From Gorillibacterium timonense (lineage in GTDB: Bacteria; Bacillota; Bacilli; Paenibacillales; NBRC-103111): a DNA stretch of 64,000 bases. The notes under the pieces were generated by a model. That model ran no database searches. It saw only the letters and a program-made list of their open reading frames with translations, and was not told where the DNA came from. Both the position numbers and the translations under genes were made by a program. Location: the NCBI RefSeq assembly GCF_001457415.1, contig NZ_LN881723.1:777246-841245 (forward strand). Reading direction: 5' to 3'. Within the stretch, counting starts at the first letter, position 1. Each line of letters opens with the position of its first letter. Positions 3,284 through 20,890 of this stretch are shown here, piece after piece.

Positions 3284-5620
3284 CTAATGGACGCGAACCT
3301 TATGAACAAGGGCATGCTCCAGCACTTGACTCAATTGGCTGACCGGAATGAAGGTGATCTCTTCCCTTACGCTCTCCGGAATTTCCTCCAGATCCTTCTC
3401 GTTGTCTTTCGGAAACAGGATCGTTTTGATTCCAGCCCGGTGGGCGGCAAGCGATTTTTCCTTCAAGCCTCCGATCGGGAGCACCCGGCCGCGCAAGGTA
3501 ATCTCTCCGGTCATGGCGACCTCCCTCGATACGGGAACCTGCGTCAAGGCCGAGATAAGCGCCGTCGCCATCGTAATCCCGGCGGAAGGTCCATCCTTCG
3601 GAATCGCTCCCTCTGGAACGTGAATGTGCACATCGTTCTTCTCATGGAAGTCAGCAGACAAATGCAGATCCGCCGCATGGGAGCGCGTATAGGTGAAAGC
3701 CGCCTGCGCCGACTCCTTCATGACATCGCCGAGCTGTCCCGTCAGCGTCAGTTTCCCGGCACCTGGCATGACACTGACTTCAATCACCATCGTATCGCCG
3801 CCCACTTCCGTCCAAGCGAGGCCGGTGACGGCTCCCACCTGATCCTCGGCTTCCGCCATGCCGTAGCGGAATTTGGACGCTCCGAGATACTTCTTGAGAT
3901 CCGCAGGCTTGATCGCGATAGACACGCCGCCGTTTGATACAATTTCTTTGGCCGTCTTGCGGCAAAGGCTTGCGAGCTGCTGCTCCAGGTTGCGCACGCC
4001 CGCTTCCCGCGTGTAGCTGCGAATGACAGTAAGCAGCGTATCCTCGCCGATATCGAGCTGCTCTGGCTCGAGACCGTGAGCCTTCTTCTGTTTCGGCAAC
4101 AGGTAACGGCTCGCGATGTGCAGCTTCTCCACCTCGGTGTAACCGGGGATGTATAACATCTCCATCCGGTCGAGCAGAGGGCGCGGAATGTTATGCACCG
4201 CATTCGCCGTCGTCACGAACATGACATTCGACAGGTCGAACGGCAGCTCGATGTAGTGGTCGCTGAACGTATTGTTCTGCTCCGGATCGAGCACCTCCAG
4301 GAGAGCGGCCGCGGGATCACCGCGGAAATCCATCGCCATCTTGTCGATCTCATCGAGCAAGAAAACCGGATTGGATGCGCCAGCATTCTTCATCCCTTGG
4401 AGGATGCGCCCTGGCATCGCCCCGACATAGGTGCGCCGGTGTCCACGAATTTCGGCTTCATCCCGGACACCGCCGAGCGATACGCGGATGAAAGGCCGCC
4501 CGAGCGACCGGGCGATGGAACGGGCGATCGACGTCTTGCCGACGCCAGGTGGTCCGACGAGGCACAGAATCGGGCCCTTCAGCTTCTTGACCAGCTTCTG
4601 CACGGCGAGATATTCCAGCACGCGCTCCTTCGGCTTCTCAAGTCCGTAGTGATCCTCGTTCAGGATCTCTTCCGCTCTCGCAAGATCGAGATCATCCTCG
4701 GTCGCCTTCGACCAGGGTAAAGCCAGCAGCCAGTCGATATAGCTGCGGATCACCCCGCCTTCAGCAGATGCGGCGGGCATTTTCTCCAGGCGGTCGATTT
4801 CCTTCTCGATCTTCTCGCGGACCTTATCCGGAAGATCAGCGCTCTCCAATTGGCTGCGCAGCTCTTCCACCTCGCCCGCGCGGCCTTCCTTTTCGCCCAA
4901 TTCCTTCTGAATGGCCTTCATCTGCTCGCGCAGGTAATATTCCTTCTGGGTCTTCTCCATCTGCTTCTTGACGCGTTGGCCGATCTTGCGTTCCAGCTCC
5001 AGAACCTCGCGCTCGTTGCCGAGTATATCGAGTAGCTTGCCGAGGCGCTCTTTGGCGTCCACGGTTTCGAGGATTTCCTGCTTGTCTTTAATCTTCAAAG
5101 ACAGATGGCTGGTGATAACATCCGCTAGCCGCCCTGGCTCATCGATGTCGGACACAGCTGCCAGCGTCTCGGGGGTAACCTTTTTGGACAAATTGATATA
5201 GTGCTCAAACTGAGTAAGAACGGTCCGCATGAGAGCGTCAATCTCGGAATCGACCGTCGTCTCCTCCGGCAGCTCCTTCAGCAGAACCTCATAATAGTCC
5301 TCGTTGTCCAGATATTCCAGCACTTCCGCGCGGACAAGCCCCTCGACCAGCACGCGGATCGTGCCGTTCGGCAGCTTGAGCATCTGGCGCACCTTCGAAA
5401 CGGTCCCGATGCGGTAAATATCCTCCTGGGTAGGATCCTCGATGTTGATCTCCGACTGGGAGGACAAGAGGATCAGGCTCTCTTCCACCATCGCCTGTTC
5501 CAGCGCCTTCACCGACTTTTCCCGCCCGACGTCCAAATGCAGGACCATGCTCGGGTATACCAAGAGCCCCCGCAAAGGCAGCAAAGGCATTCGTTTCTCT
5601 TTCGACTTGTTCTGCCCCAT
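3284..5620 (-). CDS. lonA: ATP-dependent protease LonA
   Basis: This is full-length Lon (778 residues), a cytoplasmic AAA+ serine protease that removes damaged and regulatory proteins. It has an N-terminal substrate domain (about 10-200), a coiled coil (200-300), Walker A GPPGVGKT at 356-363, Walker B FLLDEID, and the C-terminal protease domain with catalytic Ser679 (in KDGPSAG) and Lys722 (in LKEKS). These fall at the same numbers as in E. coli Lon. The start ATG at 5620 follows GGAGGTGTAGC. It sits after lonB with a 347-bp gap that may hold its own promoter. Confidence 0.98.
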
Positions 5621-5787
5621 GCTACACCTCCAGTGGTCTAAGGCGTGTCATTCCATTAAATGATCAGTCCCATCCACCGAACATCTCGCGTATCGGTAGA
5701 TCAGAGAGGACCAGATTCGGCGCTCCACCCCACTGCTTAAGTCTGCTCGAGTGGGCTGAGAGACGCGCATGGCCTCAATGTAGGATT

Positions 5788-5817: not shown

Positions 5818-5893
5818 TTCACACCTGTCCGGAATACTTGCAACGCCGCGCGGCGTGACCGAAGGAAAAGCCAGGTGAAAGGTACACTCTTCG

Positions 5894-5932
5894 GTTCTTG
5901 TTCCTGTTCCTGTTCCCGTTCCTGTCCGTTCC
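5894..5932. repeat. Hexanucleotide microsatellite after lonB
   Basis: Five imperfect GTTCCT units occur in tandem (GTTCTT, GTTCCT, GTTCCT, GTTCCC, GTTCCT), then a broken unit. They lie in the untranslated gap 36 bases beyond the lonB stop. This could be a slippage-prone site; no function is evident. Confidence 0.7.
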
Positions 5933-5967
5933 GTGCTCCGCCTTGAACAGTTTGAGATGAATCTCCT

Positions 5968-7707
5968 TCACCCGGACGGGCTGTCGATCCCACGGCTGCG
6001 GCCGTTCAAGCGTTCCACCTGCAGGAAGGGCAAAGCTGCCGGAACGACTTGCTCTGGAAACAGGGAGTACCCGGCTGTCTTTTCCGTATGAACGGTGAGC
6101 CCAAGCGCGTACTCCAATACCTCCTGGATGGAGTCGACCGCGATCACGCGCACGCCTTCCAGTCCGCTGAACAGCTCCTGCCAATTCTCCTTCGGGATGA
6201 TCACCTTGTCAGCCCCCGCCTGAAAGGCCGCTTCAACCTTGGGCACAACGCCCCCAATCGGCTTCACCTTGCCGTGAATGCTCATCTCCCCGGTCATCGC
6301 CAGGCGATTGTCGACCGGAATGTCCAGCATCGCAGAGACGATCGCCGTCGCCATCGAGATACCGGCGGACGGTCCGTCAATCGGCGTTCCGCCCGGGAAA
6401 TTGATATGCAGGTCGTAATCCTGCGGCCGGAATTCCAGGCTGCGCAGAACGGTCAGCACGTTATCCACCGATCCGCGGGCCATGCTCTTGCGCCGCAAGG
6501 TACGGGAACCGCCGCCCAACTCTTCTTCATCGACCACGCCGGTCACGTTCCAGGTTCCCGTGCCGGAAGCGGATGCCTTCACCGCCGTGACCTCGATCTC
6601 AAGCAATGTACCGAGGTTAGGCCCGTAGACAGCCAAGCCGTTCACGAATCCCACCCGGGGAGAACCGGGAACCTTCCGCTCGGGCCGGGGCGGAATCTGG
6701 CAGCTATTCACGACCCATTCGACATCAGCTGATGTGATCTCGGTGCGCTTGTCGGTGAGAGCGAGCCCGGCGGACAATTGAATCACATTGACCGCTTCCC
6801 GCCCGTTCGTAGCATAACGCTTCACCACTTCGACCGCATCCGGCCGGTCGGGAAAGCCGATCTTGCGGATGGCATTTTCGGCGATTACCCCAATTTCATC
6901 CGGCAGGAGCGGACGGAAGAAGATCTCCATGCACCGCGAGCGGATCGCCGGAGGAATATCCTGTGGAGTCCGGGTGGTGGCACCAACGAGCCGAAAATCA
7001 GCTGGAAGTCCATTTTGAAAGATATCATGGATATGCCCTGGAATATTCGGGTCCTCCGAATTGTAATAGGCGCTCTCGAGGAAGACCTTGCGGTCTTCCA
7101 GCACCTTGAGCAGTTTATTCATCTGCACGGGATGCAGTTCGCCGATTTCGTCGATAAACAGAATTCCGCCATGTGCCTTGGAGACGGCTCCCGGCTTCGG
7201 CTGCGGAATTCCCGCCACGCCCATCGCTCCCGCCCCTTGGTAGATCGGATCATGAACGGAGCCGATCAACGGATCGGCAATCCCGCGCTCGTCGAAGCGT
7301 GCTACCGTTGCGTCCGTTTCGATGAACTTGGCATCTTGGCGGAAGGGAGAAAAAGCATTTTTCTTCGCTTCCTCCAGGATGACCCGCGCTGCAGCCGTCT
7401 TGCCGACGCCGGGAGGGCCATAGATGAGCACATGCTGAGGATTCGGTCCGCATAATGCCGCTTTTAACGCGCGCAATCCTTCTTTTTGCCCGATGATTTC
7501 ATCCAGAGAGCTTGGCCGCGTCTTCTCCGAGAGCGGTTTGGAGAGCGAGATCGACCTCAGCTTACGCAGCTTCTCCAGCTCCTTCTTGGACTCTCGGTCC
7601 ACTGCCGTTCGGTTCGACTGCTGACCCCGCAGCAAATTCCAGAAATACAAGCCGATAACAACGGCAAAAAACACCTGAATAATCATAAGCGCCACACTGA
7701 GTCCCAT
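5968..7707 (-). CDS. lonB: Forespore-type ATP-dependent protease LonB
   Basis: This 579-residue membrane-anchored Lon protease is the second Lon of spore formers; in Bacillus subtilis LonB acts in the forespore. Residues 1-25 are one transmembrane helix ([17 protein letters not shown]). Walker A GPPGVGKT is at 97-104 and Walker [11 protein letters not shown] follows. The C-terminal protease domain has catalytic Ser447 (DGPSAG) and Lys490 (VVPKVEAA). The large N-terminal domain of LonA is absent, as expected. The start ATG at 7707 follows GAAGGAGGAAGC. A sigma-F-like promoter is visible upstream. Confidence 0.96.
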
Positions 7708-16763: not shown

Positions 16764-17025
16764 TGACATTTATCATCAAATCCCTCCAAAAGCCCTCCAT
16801 CATTGGTCGTAATTTGTCGTAGTGAATACCTAAATCGTCCCAACCAACAATGGTTTTCTAGCATCGCTGGTAGTTCTTTCGCAACGGTAAGGCAGCATTG
16901 TTATTTACTGCACAACCCTCTAGGACCGAACAAGACGAATTGATTTCAGCGAGACCCTGTTAAAAAAAAACTCGTACTTGTCGAAATATAGGGTGTCACT
17001 CTAATTTCTGAAGGAGGTATTCTTG

Positions 17026-17199
17026 ATGAACAAAGAACAAATTCAAGCGCTCATTGCCGAAGCAACGGAAGAAGTTTTTGAACAGAACGAGAAACGGTTT
17101 CAGAATCGAGAGTTAGTAACCGAAACGCTCAAGCTCTCCATAGAATTGTCGGCGCTGACGACGATCAAAATCTTAGAGAAGTTGGAAATCATCGAGTAA
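17026..17199 (+). CDS. Small helical protein of unknown function (57 residues)
   Basis: The ATG at 17026 has an AAGGAGGT ribosome-binding site 9 bases upstream. The product starts MNKEQIQALIAEATEEVFEQ and is entirely helical, rich in Glu, Lys and Leu with heptad-like spacing, so it may form a small coiled coil or bind a partner protein. No cysteine or catalytic motif is seen. A weak hairpin ending in GGCTTTTTT near 17221-17245 may end the transcript. A possible promoter, TTGTCG-16-TCTAAT, begins near 16979. Confidence 0.7.
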   Translation: MNKEQIQALIAEATEEVFEQNEKRFQNRELVTETLKLSIELSALTTIKILEKLEIIE

Positions 17200-17371
17200 T
17201 TGAAAGTACAATCACTTCCGGCTGCTCCTCGCGAGTGGCTTTTTTCATTTCACCCCGAATGATGTTCTCCTGCAAGCCTCTCCTCCAATTCCTACGGTCT
17301 ATTAACGCCGTTCCTCCCTTTCATGTGCCGCACCTGGTTTATACGTGTTATTGGCTGAATAGTGGATTCAC

Positions 17372-17390
17372 TCGGCACTGGGTAGCCCCA
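17372..17390 (+). repeat. Direct repeat, copy 1
   Basis: TCGGCACTGGGTAG followed by CCCCA. It matches copy 2 at 17782 apart from one extra T there. The pair flanks the small gene at 17396-17743 in the same orientation. Confidence 0.8.
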
Positions 17391-17395
17391 ACGAA

Positions 17396-17743
17396 TTAGA
17401 CATCATCACCATTCATGAAATCATCTATCCTTTCATTTTGCTGTTGGATTTCACTGAACCTGTCAAACCTATTCATTAAATAATCGATGGTGACTTCATG
17501 ATTTTGATCTATTTCTCCATCAAACAGTTTTACCCTTGCCGCTAATTTCGTCAGTCCATTTATTAGTTCCTTTAGTCTTTCATCCCCATCTTCATCTTTA
17601 AACAAAACCGTCTCTAAAATTGGGATATCGTGATCAATTCTATTTTTAATTTCAGAAAGTCCTAGGTTGGTTGTTTTTTTAATGATTGGCAAGTACTTGT
17701 TATGATTACTGTCCCGTTCCACTAACACAAGTATTTTTGTCAT
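17396..17743 (-). CDS. Small acidic protein with an L7/L12 C-terminal-like domain
   Basis: This 115-residue protein starts at an ATG with GAGGTGTAAAT upstream. Residues 1-75 (MTKILVLVERDS..., TTNLGLSEIKNRID, then LKELINGLTKLAARVKLFDG) follow the order of the ribosomal L7/L12 C-terminal domain: beta strand, helix, the LGLKEAK-type turn, helix, helix, strand. The last 40 residues are an acidic helical tail. This is a fold-level resemblance judged by eye. The gene is more AT-rich than its neighbours and is bracketed by direct repeats, so it may have been acquired. An immunity or other small acidic partner protein is an alternative. Confidence 0.65.
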   Translation of the reverse strand: MTKILVLVERDSNHNKYLPIIKKTTNLGLSEIKNRIDHDIPILETVLFKDEDGDERLKELINGLTKLAARVKLFDGEIDQNHEVTIDYLMNRFDRFSEIQQQNERIDDFMNGDDV

Positions 17744-17781
17744 ATTTACACCTCGCTAAAATTCATGATCAATTGCATATT

Positions 17782-17801
17782 TCGGCACTGGGTAGTCCCC
17801 A
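17782..17801 (+). repeat. Direct repeat, copy 2
   Basis: TCGGCACTGGGTAG followed by TCCCCA, 410 bases after copy 1 and in the same orientation. It lies just upstream of the small minus-strand gene. Confidence 0.8.
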
Positions 17802-17895
17802 CTATCTAACCTGGATATCTCATCATGCAAACTCGCAGGTAATTCTACCTACGCGCTTACATATATCTTTCGTCTACCCACCTGTTATAAGCAAA

Positions 17896-17947
17896 AGTCC
17901 CGCTAAATTCTCATGGTTTGATTATTCTACGAGAAGATAGCGAGACT
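17896..17947. other. Regular imperfect hairpin in the gap before clpB
   Basis: Three paired blocks AGTC/GACT, GCTA/TAGC and TTCTC/GAGAA are separated by symmetric 2-by-2 internal loops, around an 18-base loop. On the minus strand it is followed by TTTTGC, so a terminator or the end of a mobile element is possible. The rest of 17802-18153 holds no gene. Confidence 0.55.
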
Positions 17948-18153
17948 CCCTTATTTTACTATTCGCTTCAATAATAATCCGTGTCAAATTTCGATCATTT
18001 TCAACACACCGAAGACACCGGCAATTGGTTGTTCATTGATCGCATCGACAGAAGCTTTGTTTGCCTCCAAAGGCTATCCTGCGGAAACGTAAACGCCCGG
18101 AGTCTGGACCGCTCTGCTCATCGCGCTTCCTTATTCGACATTACCGACTCGGC

Positions 18154-20769
18154 TTAGCTCTTCTCGATGTCCACGGTGAGTGCGCCGTCTTTCACTCCGA
18201 CCAGCAAAGTCGAACCCTCTGCGGCTTCACCGGCAATCAACGCGCGGGCGACTCGGGTTTCTAAATGCCGCTGAATAAACCGTTTGAGCGGCCGTGCTCC
18301 ATAGACCGGATCAAAGCCCTCTTCCGCGATAAAGCGGCGCGCGCTGTCTTCGAGGATGAGCCGGATCTGCCGGTCCGCAAGGCGGGCATCCAGCTGCTCC
18401 ACAAGCTTGCCGACGATCTGTTCGATCTCATTCAAGCTAAGCGGCTTGAACATCACGATGTCATCGATGCGATTGAGCAATTCCGGCCGGAACCGCGCCT
18501 GAAGCTCGCGCATGACCAGCTCCCGCGATTCCTCCGGAATCTGCCCGGATGCATCGGCTCCTTGGATCAGGAAAGCGGAGCCGATGTTCGACGTCATGAT
18601 GATGATCGTATTCTTGAAGTTGACGACGCGCCCTTGGGAATCGGTCAAACGACCGTCATCGAGCAGCTGCAGCAGGATGTTGAACACATCGGGATGAGCC
18701 TTCTCCACCTCATCCAGCAAGACAACCGAATAAGGCTGGCGGCGGACCGCCTCGGTCAATTGACCGCCTTCCTCGTACCCGATATATCCGGGAGGCGCAC
18801 CGACCAGCCGGGATACACTGTGCTTCTCCATATACTCGGACATGTCGATGCGGATCATGTTCTCTTCGCGGTCGAAGAGGGCGGCGGACAGCGCTTTGGC
18901 CAGCTCCGTCTTGCCGACTCCGGTCGGTCCGAGGAACAGGAAGGACCCGATCGGTCGGTTCGGGTCTTTGATGCCTGCCCGAGCCCGGAGCACCGCATCC
19001 GCCACGAGGCTCACTGCCTCATCCTGGCCGATCACGCGCTCGTGAAGATGCTCATCCAGCTTCAGCAGCTTATCGCGTTCGCCTTCGACAAGGCGGCTGA
19101 CCGGGATTCCCGTCCATTTGGAGACGATATCGGCAATCTCCTCCTCCGTCACGGCCTCGCGCAACAGCCGATTGTCCTGTTCCTGCTGGACGGCTTCCTC
19201 AGCTTGCTTCAGCTCCTTTTCCAGTCCGGGAATGATGCCATAACTCAGCTCTGCAGACTTTTCCAGATCATAACGATCTTCCGCGTCGGCCAGATTCTTG
19301 CGGGCCTGCTCCAGCCTTTGCTTGATGCCGCGAACACCCTGGATGGCGGATTTCTCCTTCTCCCAGCGGGCCTTCATGCCGAGATGCTTCTCCTTCAAGT
19401 CCGCCAGCTCCCGCTGCAGCGCCTCGAGGCGGCGCTTGCTCGCTTCGTCGGTCTCCTTCTTCAGCGCGGCCTCCTCGATCTCCATCTGCATCATCCGCCG
19501 CGTCACTTCATCCATCTCAGCCGGCATCGAGTCGATCTCCGTGCGGATCATCGCGCAGGCTTCGTCCACGAGATCGATCGCTTTATCCGGCAAGAAGCGG
19601 TCGGTGATGTAGCGGTTGGACAGTACGCCTGCGGCGACCAAGGCGTTGTCGTGAATCTTGACGCCGTGATGAACCTCGAAGCGTTCTTTCAGGCCGCGAA
19701 GAATGGAGATGGTATCCTCCACATCCGGCTCGACGACCAGCACCTGCTGGAACCGGCGCTCAAGAGCAGGGTCCTTCTCGATATAGGTGCGGTATTCATC
19801 GAGTGTCGTCGCCCCAATGCAGTGCAGTTCCCCACGAGCGAGCATCGGCTTCAGCATATTCCCGGCGTCCATCGCGCCTTCGGTTTTCCCGGCTCCGACG
19901 ATGGTGTGAAGTTCGTCGATGAACAGGATGATGCGGCCGTCGCTCTCCCGTATCTCTTTCAATACGGCCTGCAGCCGTTCCTCAAACTCCCCGCGATACT
20001 TCGCCCCTGCCACAAGCGCGGACAGATCAAGCGAGAAGATCGTTTTGTCCTTCAAGCCCTCGGGCACGTCTCTCCTCACGATTCGGTGAGCCAGCCCTTC
20101 CACGATGGCGGTTTTCCCGACTCCAGGCTCACCAATCAGAACCGGATTGTTCTTCGTCTTGCGGGAGAGGATGCGGATGACGCGGCGAATTTCACTGTCG
20201 CGCCCGATGACCGGGTCCACCTTGCCGGCCCGAACCTCCGCGACCAGATCGCGCCCGTACTTTTCCAGCACCTCGTAGGTGGCTTCGGGCTCCCGGCTGG
20301 TCACTCGCTGATGGCCGCGAATGTCACCGAGTGCGGTCAACAGCTTGCGGCGAGTGATGCCTTGCTCAGCAAACAGATCATGCAGCTCCCGGTTGTCGAC
20401 GGCCGACTCGCCAAGCATGGCGAGCACGGCATGCTCGACGGCGACGTACTCGTCGTTCATGTCCGCCGCTTCCTTCTCCGCCCGTTCAAGAACGCGGATC
20501 AGCGAAGCGGAGGCGTACCGGCGGACCGATTCCGCTCCGGAGCCATTCACTTGCGGCTTGCGACCGAGCAGTATATCGGTCTTACGAGCGGTTTCAGCCG
20601 GCGATACCTCCAACTTTTGCAGCAAGCGGGGAAGCAGCCCATCATTCTGAACGAGGAGAGCCTTGAGCAGATGAAGGCTGTCAATCTCCGGGTGTCCGCC
20701 CGATGCGGCGGCAGACTGAGCGGCAGCGACGGCTTCCTGAAGCTTTTGGGTGTATTTGTTGAAGTCCAT
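18154..20769 (-). CDS. clpB: ATP-dependent disaggregase ClpB
   Basis: This 871-residue Hsp100 chaperone pulls apart protein aggregates with DnaK. It has an N-terminal Clp repeat domain (1-145), a first AAA+ module with Walker [10 protein letters not shown], a middle coiled-coil domain (about 405-525) that marks ClpB rather than ClpC, and a second AAA+ module with Walker [10 protein letters not shown]. The start is placed at the second ATG (20769) because GGAGGG is then 7 bases away; the first ATG lies 2 bases from it. A promoter and two CtsR boxes lie upstream, so it is heat-shock controlled. Confidence 0.98.
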
Positions 20770-20890
20770 ATCCATTCCCTCCTGGGGTTTGCTCGTAATC
20801 GAGCTACCTTCTCATTCCTGCTCTTGCGGGAGTTCCGATCGATATCATTTGGGTATCAGCAAGCAGGATTATCCATCAGCCTCCCGATCA

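Follow-up and report, generated by a model that had tools for sequence, protein, structure and literature searches.

The window analysed here is the whole stretch of 64,000 nucleotides of Gorillibacterium timonense DNA. It contains a small gene on the minus strand (17396-17743) encoding a 115-aa protein (P0001) that is predicted to resemble ribosomal protein L7/L12; the gene was recognized from its open frame, the predicted fold, and homologues that adjoin Tox-GHH toxins. The motif GAGGTG (17749-17754, minus strand), read in the sequence, is probably its ribosome-binding site. As originally noticed, the gene is AT-rich: its GC content is 33.6% vs. 53.5% for the window, and one of 1274 sliding 348-bp windows has a GC content at or below that of the gene. 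The next gene upstream (18154-20775, minus strand) is one that we take to resemble clpB. A 57-aa frame without a Pfam match faces the P0001 gene from the other side (17026-17199, plus strand) and is followed by a terminator-like hairpin at 17220-17240. Profile search identified no toxin remnant in the flanks; one 24-aa flank stretch weakly matches a toxin-type frame of a locus in another genome (L115, E=0.05).

Direct repeats flanking the gene

The gene is bracketed by two repeat copies, placed as the original prediction had them. The downstream copy (17372-17392, minus strand, TCGGCACTGGGTAGCCCCAAC) was identified by a repeat search of the window, and the upstream copy (17782-17802, minus strand, TCGGCACTGGGTAGTCCCCAC) consists of about 20 bp that are 95% identical to the left edge of the element described below. 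Both have the same orientation, with 410 bp from start to start. The genome (G000; 5,263,775 bases in 7 contigs, 99.97% complete) contains the 14-base repeat core in exactly two places by exact-pattern search, and the reversed control pattern in none. An 18-base pattern with three mismatches allowed finds 5 places, including both window copies, vs. 3 for its control, and no further copies in this genome stand out over the control in that search. Chance was ruled out as the source of the repeat, given that the 5.26 Mb contain the core exactly twice, at a spacing of 410 bp, and that one copy extends into a conserved element. A repeat family of this genome was ruled out by the core, mismatch and element searches of the genome.

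The downstream copy is longer than first seen: positions 17332-17389 (minus strand) match 58 bp of a family-wide element (84%, E=2.3e-11). This match corresponds to element positions 2-59 of 197, contains the downstream repeat and is separated by 6 bp from the stop codon of the P0001 gene. The terminator half of the element is missing from both window copies, and the upstream copy retains about 20 bp. Judging from these alignments, each repeat represents the left edge of the ~200-bp element, so that the gene between them would be a unit without its toxin. Absence of the repeat elsewhere had originally been named among the conditions that would count against the cassette idea. The repeat is indeed absent from the rest of its own genome, but it belongs to an element that is common in other genomes.

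Short direct repeats around an AT-rich gene could also be the ends or the target duplication of a transposon or MITE, in which case the link to toxin arrays would be incidental; insertion-sequence-like and recombinase genes are indeed present in those arrays. We consider this improbable, given that the downstream repeat lies within the 58-bp match to a conserved element that stands elsewhere behind immunity genes. Transposon ends were ruled out, as terminal inverted repeats were not found in 17000-18200 (0 inverted repeat pairs).

The element in other genomes

The 14-base core occurs in 12 of 104 genomes of the family, and similarity continues beyond the core in several of them. A 197-base consensus of the element matches 35 of the 104 family genomes (11 of 22 genera) and 38 of 99 genomes of the order (13 of 33 genera), the two samples overlapping. 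Plasmid and phage records gave no match. In the alignment of 28 nearly complete copies, the left edge is sharp and coincides with the repeat core, and the right end carries a 14-pair terminator hairpin. A structured RNA beyond the terminator was rejected, as the consensus fold consists of this single 14-pair hairpin, with double changes at 2 pairs. Membership of a known RNA family was rejected too, none of six loci matching Rfam at the gathering score.

The left end of the element (defined as a match from position 10 or before) is present in 24 of the 30 listed loci, window included. In 19 of these 24, the stop of a same-strand frame (at least 60 aa) lies no more than 130 bp before it, and in 14 of the 19 the distance is 41-74 bp; the remaining five have no such frame ending within 130 bp before the element. 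Nine of the 28 genes scanned directly before the element score above the cut-off of an immunity-type family (SUFU three times, SUKH three times, Imm50, ankyrin repeats and CdiI_3), one belongs to DUF6630, and 18 have no Pfam match above cut-off. Some of these immunity genes are immediately preceded by a toxin (GH-E, Tox-HNH-EHHH, TreTu, Ntox50 and EndoU). Complete copies of the element often stand after pairs of toxin tip and immunity gene, and four loci (L038, L139, L140 and L141) have several co-oriented units of tip, immunity gene and element in a row. The arrays also contain insertion-sequence-like genes. Serine recombinase genes were seen inside two element-bearing arrays (L030, 12000-12776; L141, 9648-10478).

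A replication-initiation-like gene follows the element within 1.2 kb on the same strand for 11 of 40 distinct copies with a 3' end, two of the 11 being self-matches, since two query pieces come from these loci (L057, L030, L072, L065, L058, L066, L138, L135, L134 and L137). Five of the 11 are of HTH_36 type, and the two of these that were scanned are above the Pfam cut-off and match replication initiation in PHROGs (E 2.5e-10 and 8.5e-12). The other six are relatives of a protein whose weak similarity to Rep_trans stays below cut-off and which has no PHROGs match. The same test upstream of 41 left ends gave one match, and that one is the neighbour within a tandem pair. A replicon-like vehicle, now decayed, may have the element as its edge.

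A protein family linked to Tox-GHH toxins

Homologues of P0001 were identified in 7 of the 104 family genomes, its own included, and by profile search in 14 of 392 genomes of the order and 11 of 398 of the class (23 distinct genomes, with G000 and G157 in both samples). One homologue comes from a Jeotgalibacillus genome (39% identity) and one from a Niallia megaplasmid (52% identity); overall, P0001 is 21-55% identical to aligned family members. We examined 25 loci (6 from the family, 17 from the order and class, plus L008 and L028), of which 24 hold a homologue ORF; L114 (G157) has none and was left out of the 24.

A Tox-GHH gene was identified by profile directly upstream of the homologue, on the same strand, in 7 of the 24 loci, and PF15636 (Tox-GHH) is above the Pfam cut-off in all 5 toxins scanned. 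The gene is a VgrG-like carrier toxin in L108 and L109 (gap to the homologue 35 bp in each), a 182-aa toxin tip in L115 (33 bp), an LXG carrier toxin in L118 and L119 (14 and 15 bp) and a toxin fragment in L120 (8-bp overlap with the homologue). The toxin frame is cut by a stop in L111, where the homologue lies 154 bp from the open part. The seven represent about five independent linkages, as L108 and L109 are near copies and L118 and L120 share one genome (G696). The stop in L111 falls within the Tox-GHH domain of the frame at 4685-5731, and the immunity gene behind it (5886-6233) stays open.

No Tox-GHH toxin adjoins the homologue in the other 17 of the 24 loci, and P0001 itself is among the genes without a toxin beside them. 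The homologue in L117 stands among Tdi1-type, SUKH and YezG-like immunity genes. Three family members stand in tandem in L121 (5157-6342), from a 2.1-Mb genome of the same class. In L008 an LXG toxin of a different type (WHH) precedes the homologue at a distance of 2.7 kb, with several small genes in between, one of them SUKH-like by eye. The gene ahead of the L121 tandem resembles, by eye, the Tdi1-type immunity gene of L117.

The 17 loci without a neighbouring Tox-GHH gene, like the 21-55% identities, would fit an immunity or antitoxin-like protein for a different toxin, in a family with several partners whose diverged orphan is non-cognate or inactive. We regard this as unlikely, although less so than a transposon insertion: the closest toxin-linked homologue of P0001 (L118, 55%) sits 14 bp behind a Tox-GHH toxin, and no other toxin type stands directly before a homologue in the loci read, the neighbours of which were scanned in part.

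The carrier genome has no match to the toxin-subfamily profile at E<=1e-6 and none to PF15636 at E<=0.1; the latter search gives below-cut-off matches in 2 of 14 control genomes. At E<=1e-6 the subfamily profile matches 4 of 392 order genomes and 4 of 398 class genomes, and these matches are the toxin-linked loci above (from which the profile was built, so that they match by construction) apart from a weak one in G149. The latter (L128, E 5.5e-7) was not counted as the same toxin, as its 404-aa frame runs into a stretch that looks hydrophobic by eye. By these searches the cognate toxin is absent from the carrier genome, as expected of an orphan immunity gene. The best reading is that P0001 belongs to a Tox-GHH nuclease immunity family covered above cut-off by neither Pfam nor NCBIfam and is an orphan here; we infer that it binds and neutralizes the toxin. 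The original suggestion of an immunity-like partner is supported by the linkage of the family to Tox-GHH toxins.

The sole Rhs/WapA-like locus of the genome (L083, G000:C7:162000-181000) has a 2285-aa frame with RHS repeats followed by a 219-aa gene, and a separate 316-aa RHS fragment. Presence of the element there was rejected, with matches only at E of 6.5.

Predicted fold and resemblance to L7/L12

P0001 has no Pfam or NCBIfam match above cut-off, and nothing above cut-off or relevant in PHROGs. No match to PF00542 (L7/L12 C-terminal domain) was found at E<=1, and TIGR00855 (L7/L12) is likewise not listed. The toxin-linked homologue in L118 scores 17.6 bits against PF00542 (E=0.005), where the cut-off is 25.9 bits, and TIGR00855 gives a homologue 14.5 bits of its 84.4-bit cut-off; neither P0001 nor any homologue scanned reaches the cut-off of either curated model. 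Searched against the PDB, the family profile matches an L7/L12 chain best (E=0.012), and L7/L12 accounts for 9 of the 26 matches up to E=10.

An AlphaFold2 model of P0001 (20 homologues, mean pLDDT 79.5) runs strand-helix-helix-strand-helix-strand, followed by a short strand and, at the C-terminus, a long helix in which confidence falls to 50-57. Foldseek places L7/L12 at ranks 1-3 (E 3.0e-3 to 5.2e-3), followed by ClpS and more L7/L12, with no match at E<=0.001. VIA-align gave the P0001 model Z values of 6.3 (ClpS), 6.2 and 6.1 (L7/L12), 6.1 (AcrIIC3) and 5.7 (penicillin-binding-protein domain), and gave a second family member, modelled separately (pLDDT 77.1), values of 6.8 (L7/L12), 6.6 (ClpS), 6.6 (a malarial protein), 6.5 (penicillin-binding protein) and 6.4 (AcrIIC3), all of them tied and under 8, such that a shared arrangement alone may explain them. 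The alignment of P0001 to L7/L12 takes in residues 1-77 and covers the C-terminal domain only; the N-terminal dimerisation domain and the hinge are missing. A resemblance confined to the C-terminal domain is likely, because the predicted fold and the sequence point the same way, and the originally proposed L7/L12-like fold thus stands as a prediction (from the AlphaFold2 model, Foldseek, VIA-align and the family profile against the PDB). As for the acidic tail also claimed for the protein, the last 25 residues include 7 acidic and 3 basic ones, and the bias is modest. Distant members of about 200 aa in L112, L113 and L034 have the L7/L12-like domain and a second region, possibly duplicated.

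The predicted fold and the weak sequence similarity could point to a translation-related derivative of L7/L12 that binds elongation factors and has nothing to do with toxins. This we think very improbable, and nothing was found for the interaction with translation factors that had been proposed. No L7/L12 model reaches its cut-off, the match begins at residue 1 with the N-terminal part missing, the spread is patchy (14 of 392 order genomes), the family is linked to toxins, and ClpS and other folds score equally. Gene neighbourhoods indicate that P0001 is no ribosomal protein, because 7 of the 24 homologue loci have a Tox-GHH gene directly upstream.

Origin of the locus and proposed mechanism

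We consider it likely that the locus is a stripped unit of a polymorphic-toxin array, in which an orphan Tox-GHH immunity gene with an L7/L12-like core lies between left-edge remnants of a terminator-bearing element. The window seems to hold one cassette without its toxin. That the gene is part of an inserted cassette, as first proposed, is supported by the occurrence of the element in other genomes, the low GC content and the differing neighbourhoods of the homologues; apart from that of G. timonense, the 104 family genomes include none of the genus.

We predict that the immunity protein, the core of which would be the L7/L12-like domain followed by the C-terminal helix, binds and blocks a Tox-GHH (HNH/EndoVII) nuclease made by other bacteria. 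In a carrier without such a toxin, the orphan gene would protect against the non-self toxin. The element, being common to unrelated immunity genes, would offer shared homology for recombination, and units could therefore be exchanged or lost. Recombination between the element before and the element after the immunity gene may have placed the unit here, leaving out the toxin tip. The insertion-sequence-like genes and serine recombinases of the arrays may also move units. The shortness of the element copies in the window speaks against the recombination model.

A broader scheme, to which we give limited credence, is that the ~200-bp element serves an order-wide Gram-positive cassette system as its exchange site, possibly with a replicon-like edge, and that the window holds a toxin-less end product encoding an inhibitor of HNH nucleases that is perhaps AcrIIC3-like. 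If so, units of toxin tip and immunity gene, or immunity genes alone, would be swapped, stored and dispersed via a common 3' element, and the unit in the window would be a toxin-less immunity gene far from any array.

The likely reading, that of a stripped array unit, puts forward a candidate for a new family of immunity proteins against Tox-GHH nucleases. It also supplies a concrete DNA element on which to test how Gram-positive bacteria exchange toxin and immunity cassettes. Should the fold be confirmed, a housekeeping-type fold would serve as a nuclease inhibitor.

Comparison with known systems

The likeness to the L7/L12 C-terminal domain (PF00542) consists of the predicted fold and weak sequence similarity. 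Unlike L7/L12, the P0001 family is below all cut-offs, lacks the N-terminal part and is toxin-linked, and the P0001 model has an extra C-terminal strand and helix. L12/ClpS domains have been described as inserted in another kind of conflict system, in the accessible part of PMC7159879.

Entry 6j9n shows the anti-CRISPR protein AcrIIC3 in complex with the NmeCas9 HNH domain, and both AcrIIC3 and the P0001 family would, if the models are right, be binders of an HNH nuclease. AcrIIC3 aligns with the two family models over 81-82 residues (Z 6.1 and 6.4), and the alignments of its entries (6j9n, 6je4, 6jhw and 6jhv) with both models are longer than those of L7/L12. At 7-8% identity, and with Z values tied with those of L7/L12, ClpS and penicillin-binding-protein domains, this is a lead only. 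By sequence, the search of the PDB with the family profile did not find AcrIIC3.

Orphan immunity genes and cassette exchange are already known. No prior description of the element or of the immunity family was found in the literature searched, most subscription journals lying outside it; as far as that literature reaches, the L7/L12-like partner of Tox-GHH and a single 3' element shared order-wide by unrelated immunity genes are new. The systems share with the polymorphic toxins bearing Tox-GHH (PF15636), as set out in the accessible part of PMC3482391 (Zhang et al., 2012), carriers (LXG and VgrG-like) that end in Tox-GHH and are followed immediately by a small gene, and standalone cassettes. 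The partner there is Imm-SUKH, the only Tox-GHH immunity partner named in the table within that part, whereas the partner here is L7/L12-like; 'L12' does not occur in the text available from that source. The Tox-GHH domain is also the C-terminal end of animal teneurins, according to the accessible part of PMC13018210.

The rAID arrays of Bacteroidales, in the portion available of PMC12247911, contain orphan immunity genes with conserved intergenic motifs. The likeness lies in co-oriented short immunity genes separated by such motifs, an arrangement that we met in other genomes, whereas the window has one gene between two remnants. Unlike what that portion describes, our arrays include toxin tips, belong to another order and have a ~200-bp element with a terminator. 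In the esaG clusters of Staphylococcus, the blocks at which recombination takes place take in the end of the gene as well as the spacer behind it (PMC9484751, as far as accessible), and the esaG and tipC clusters treated there share with our loci a conserved block at the gene end and in the 3' spacer that serves, or here may serve, recombination. Their genes are paralogues of one family, whereas here one element stands behind unrelated immunity genes.
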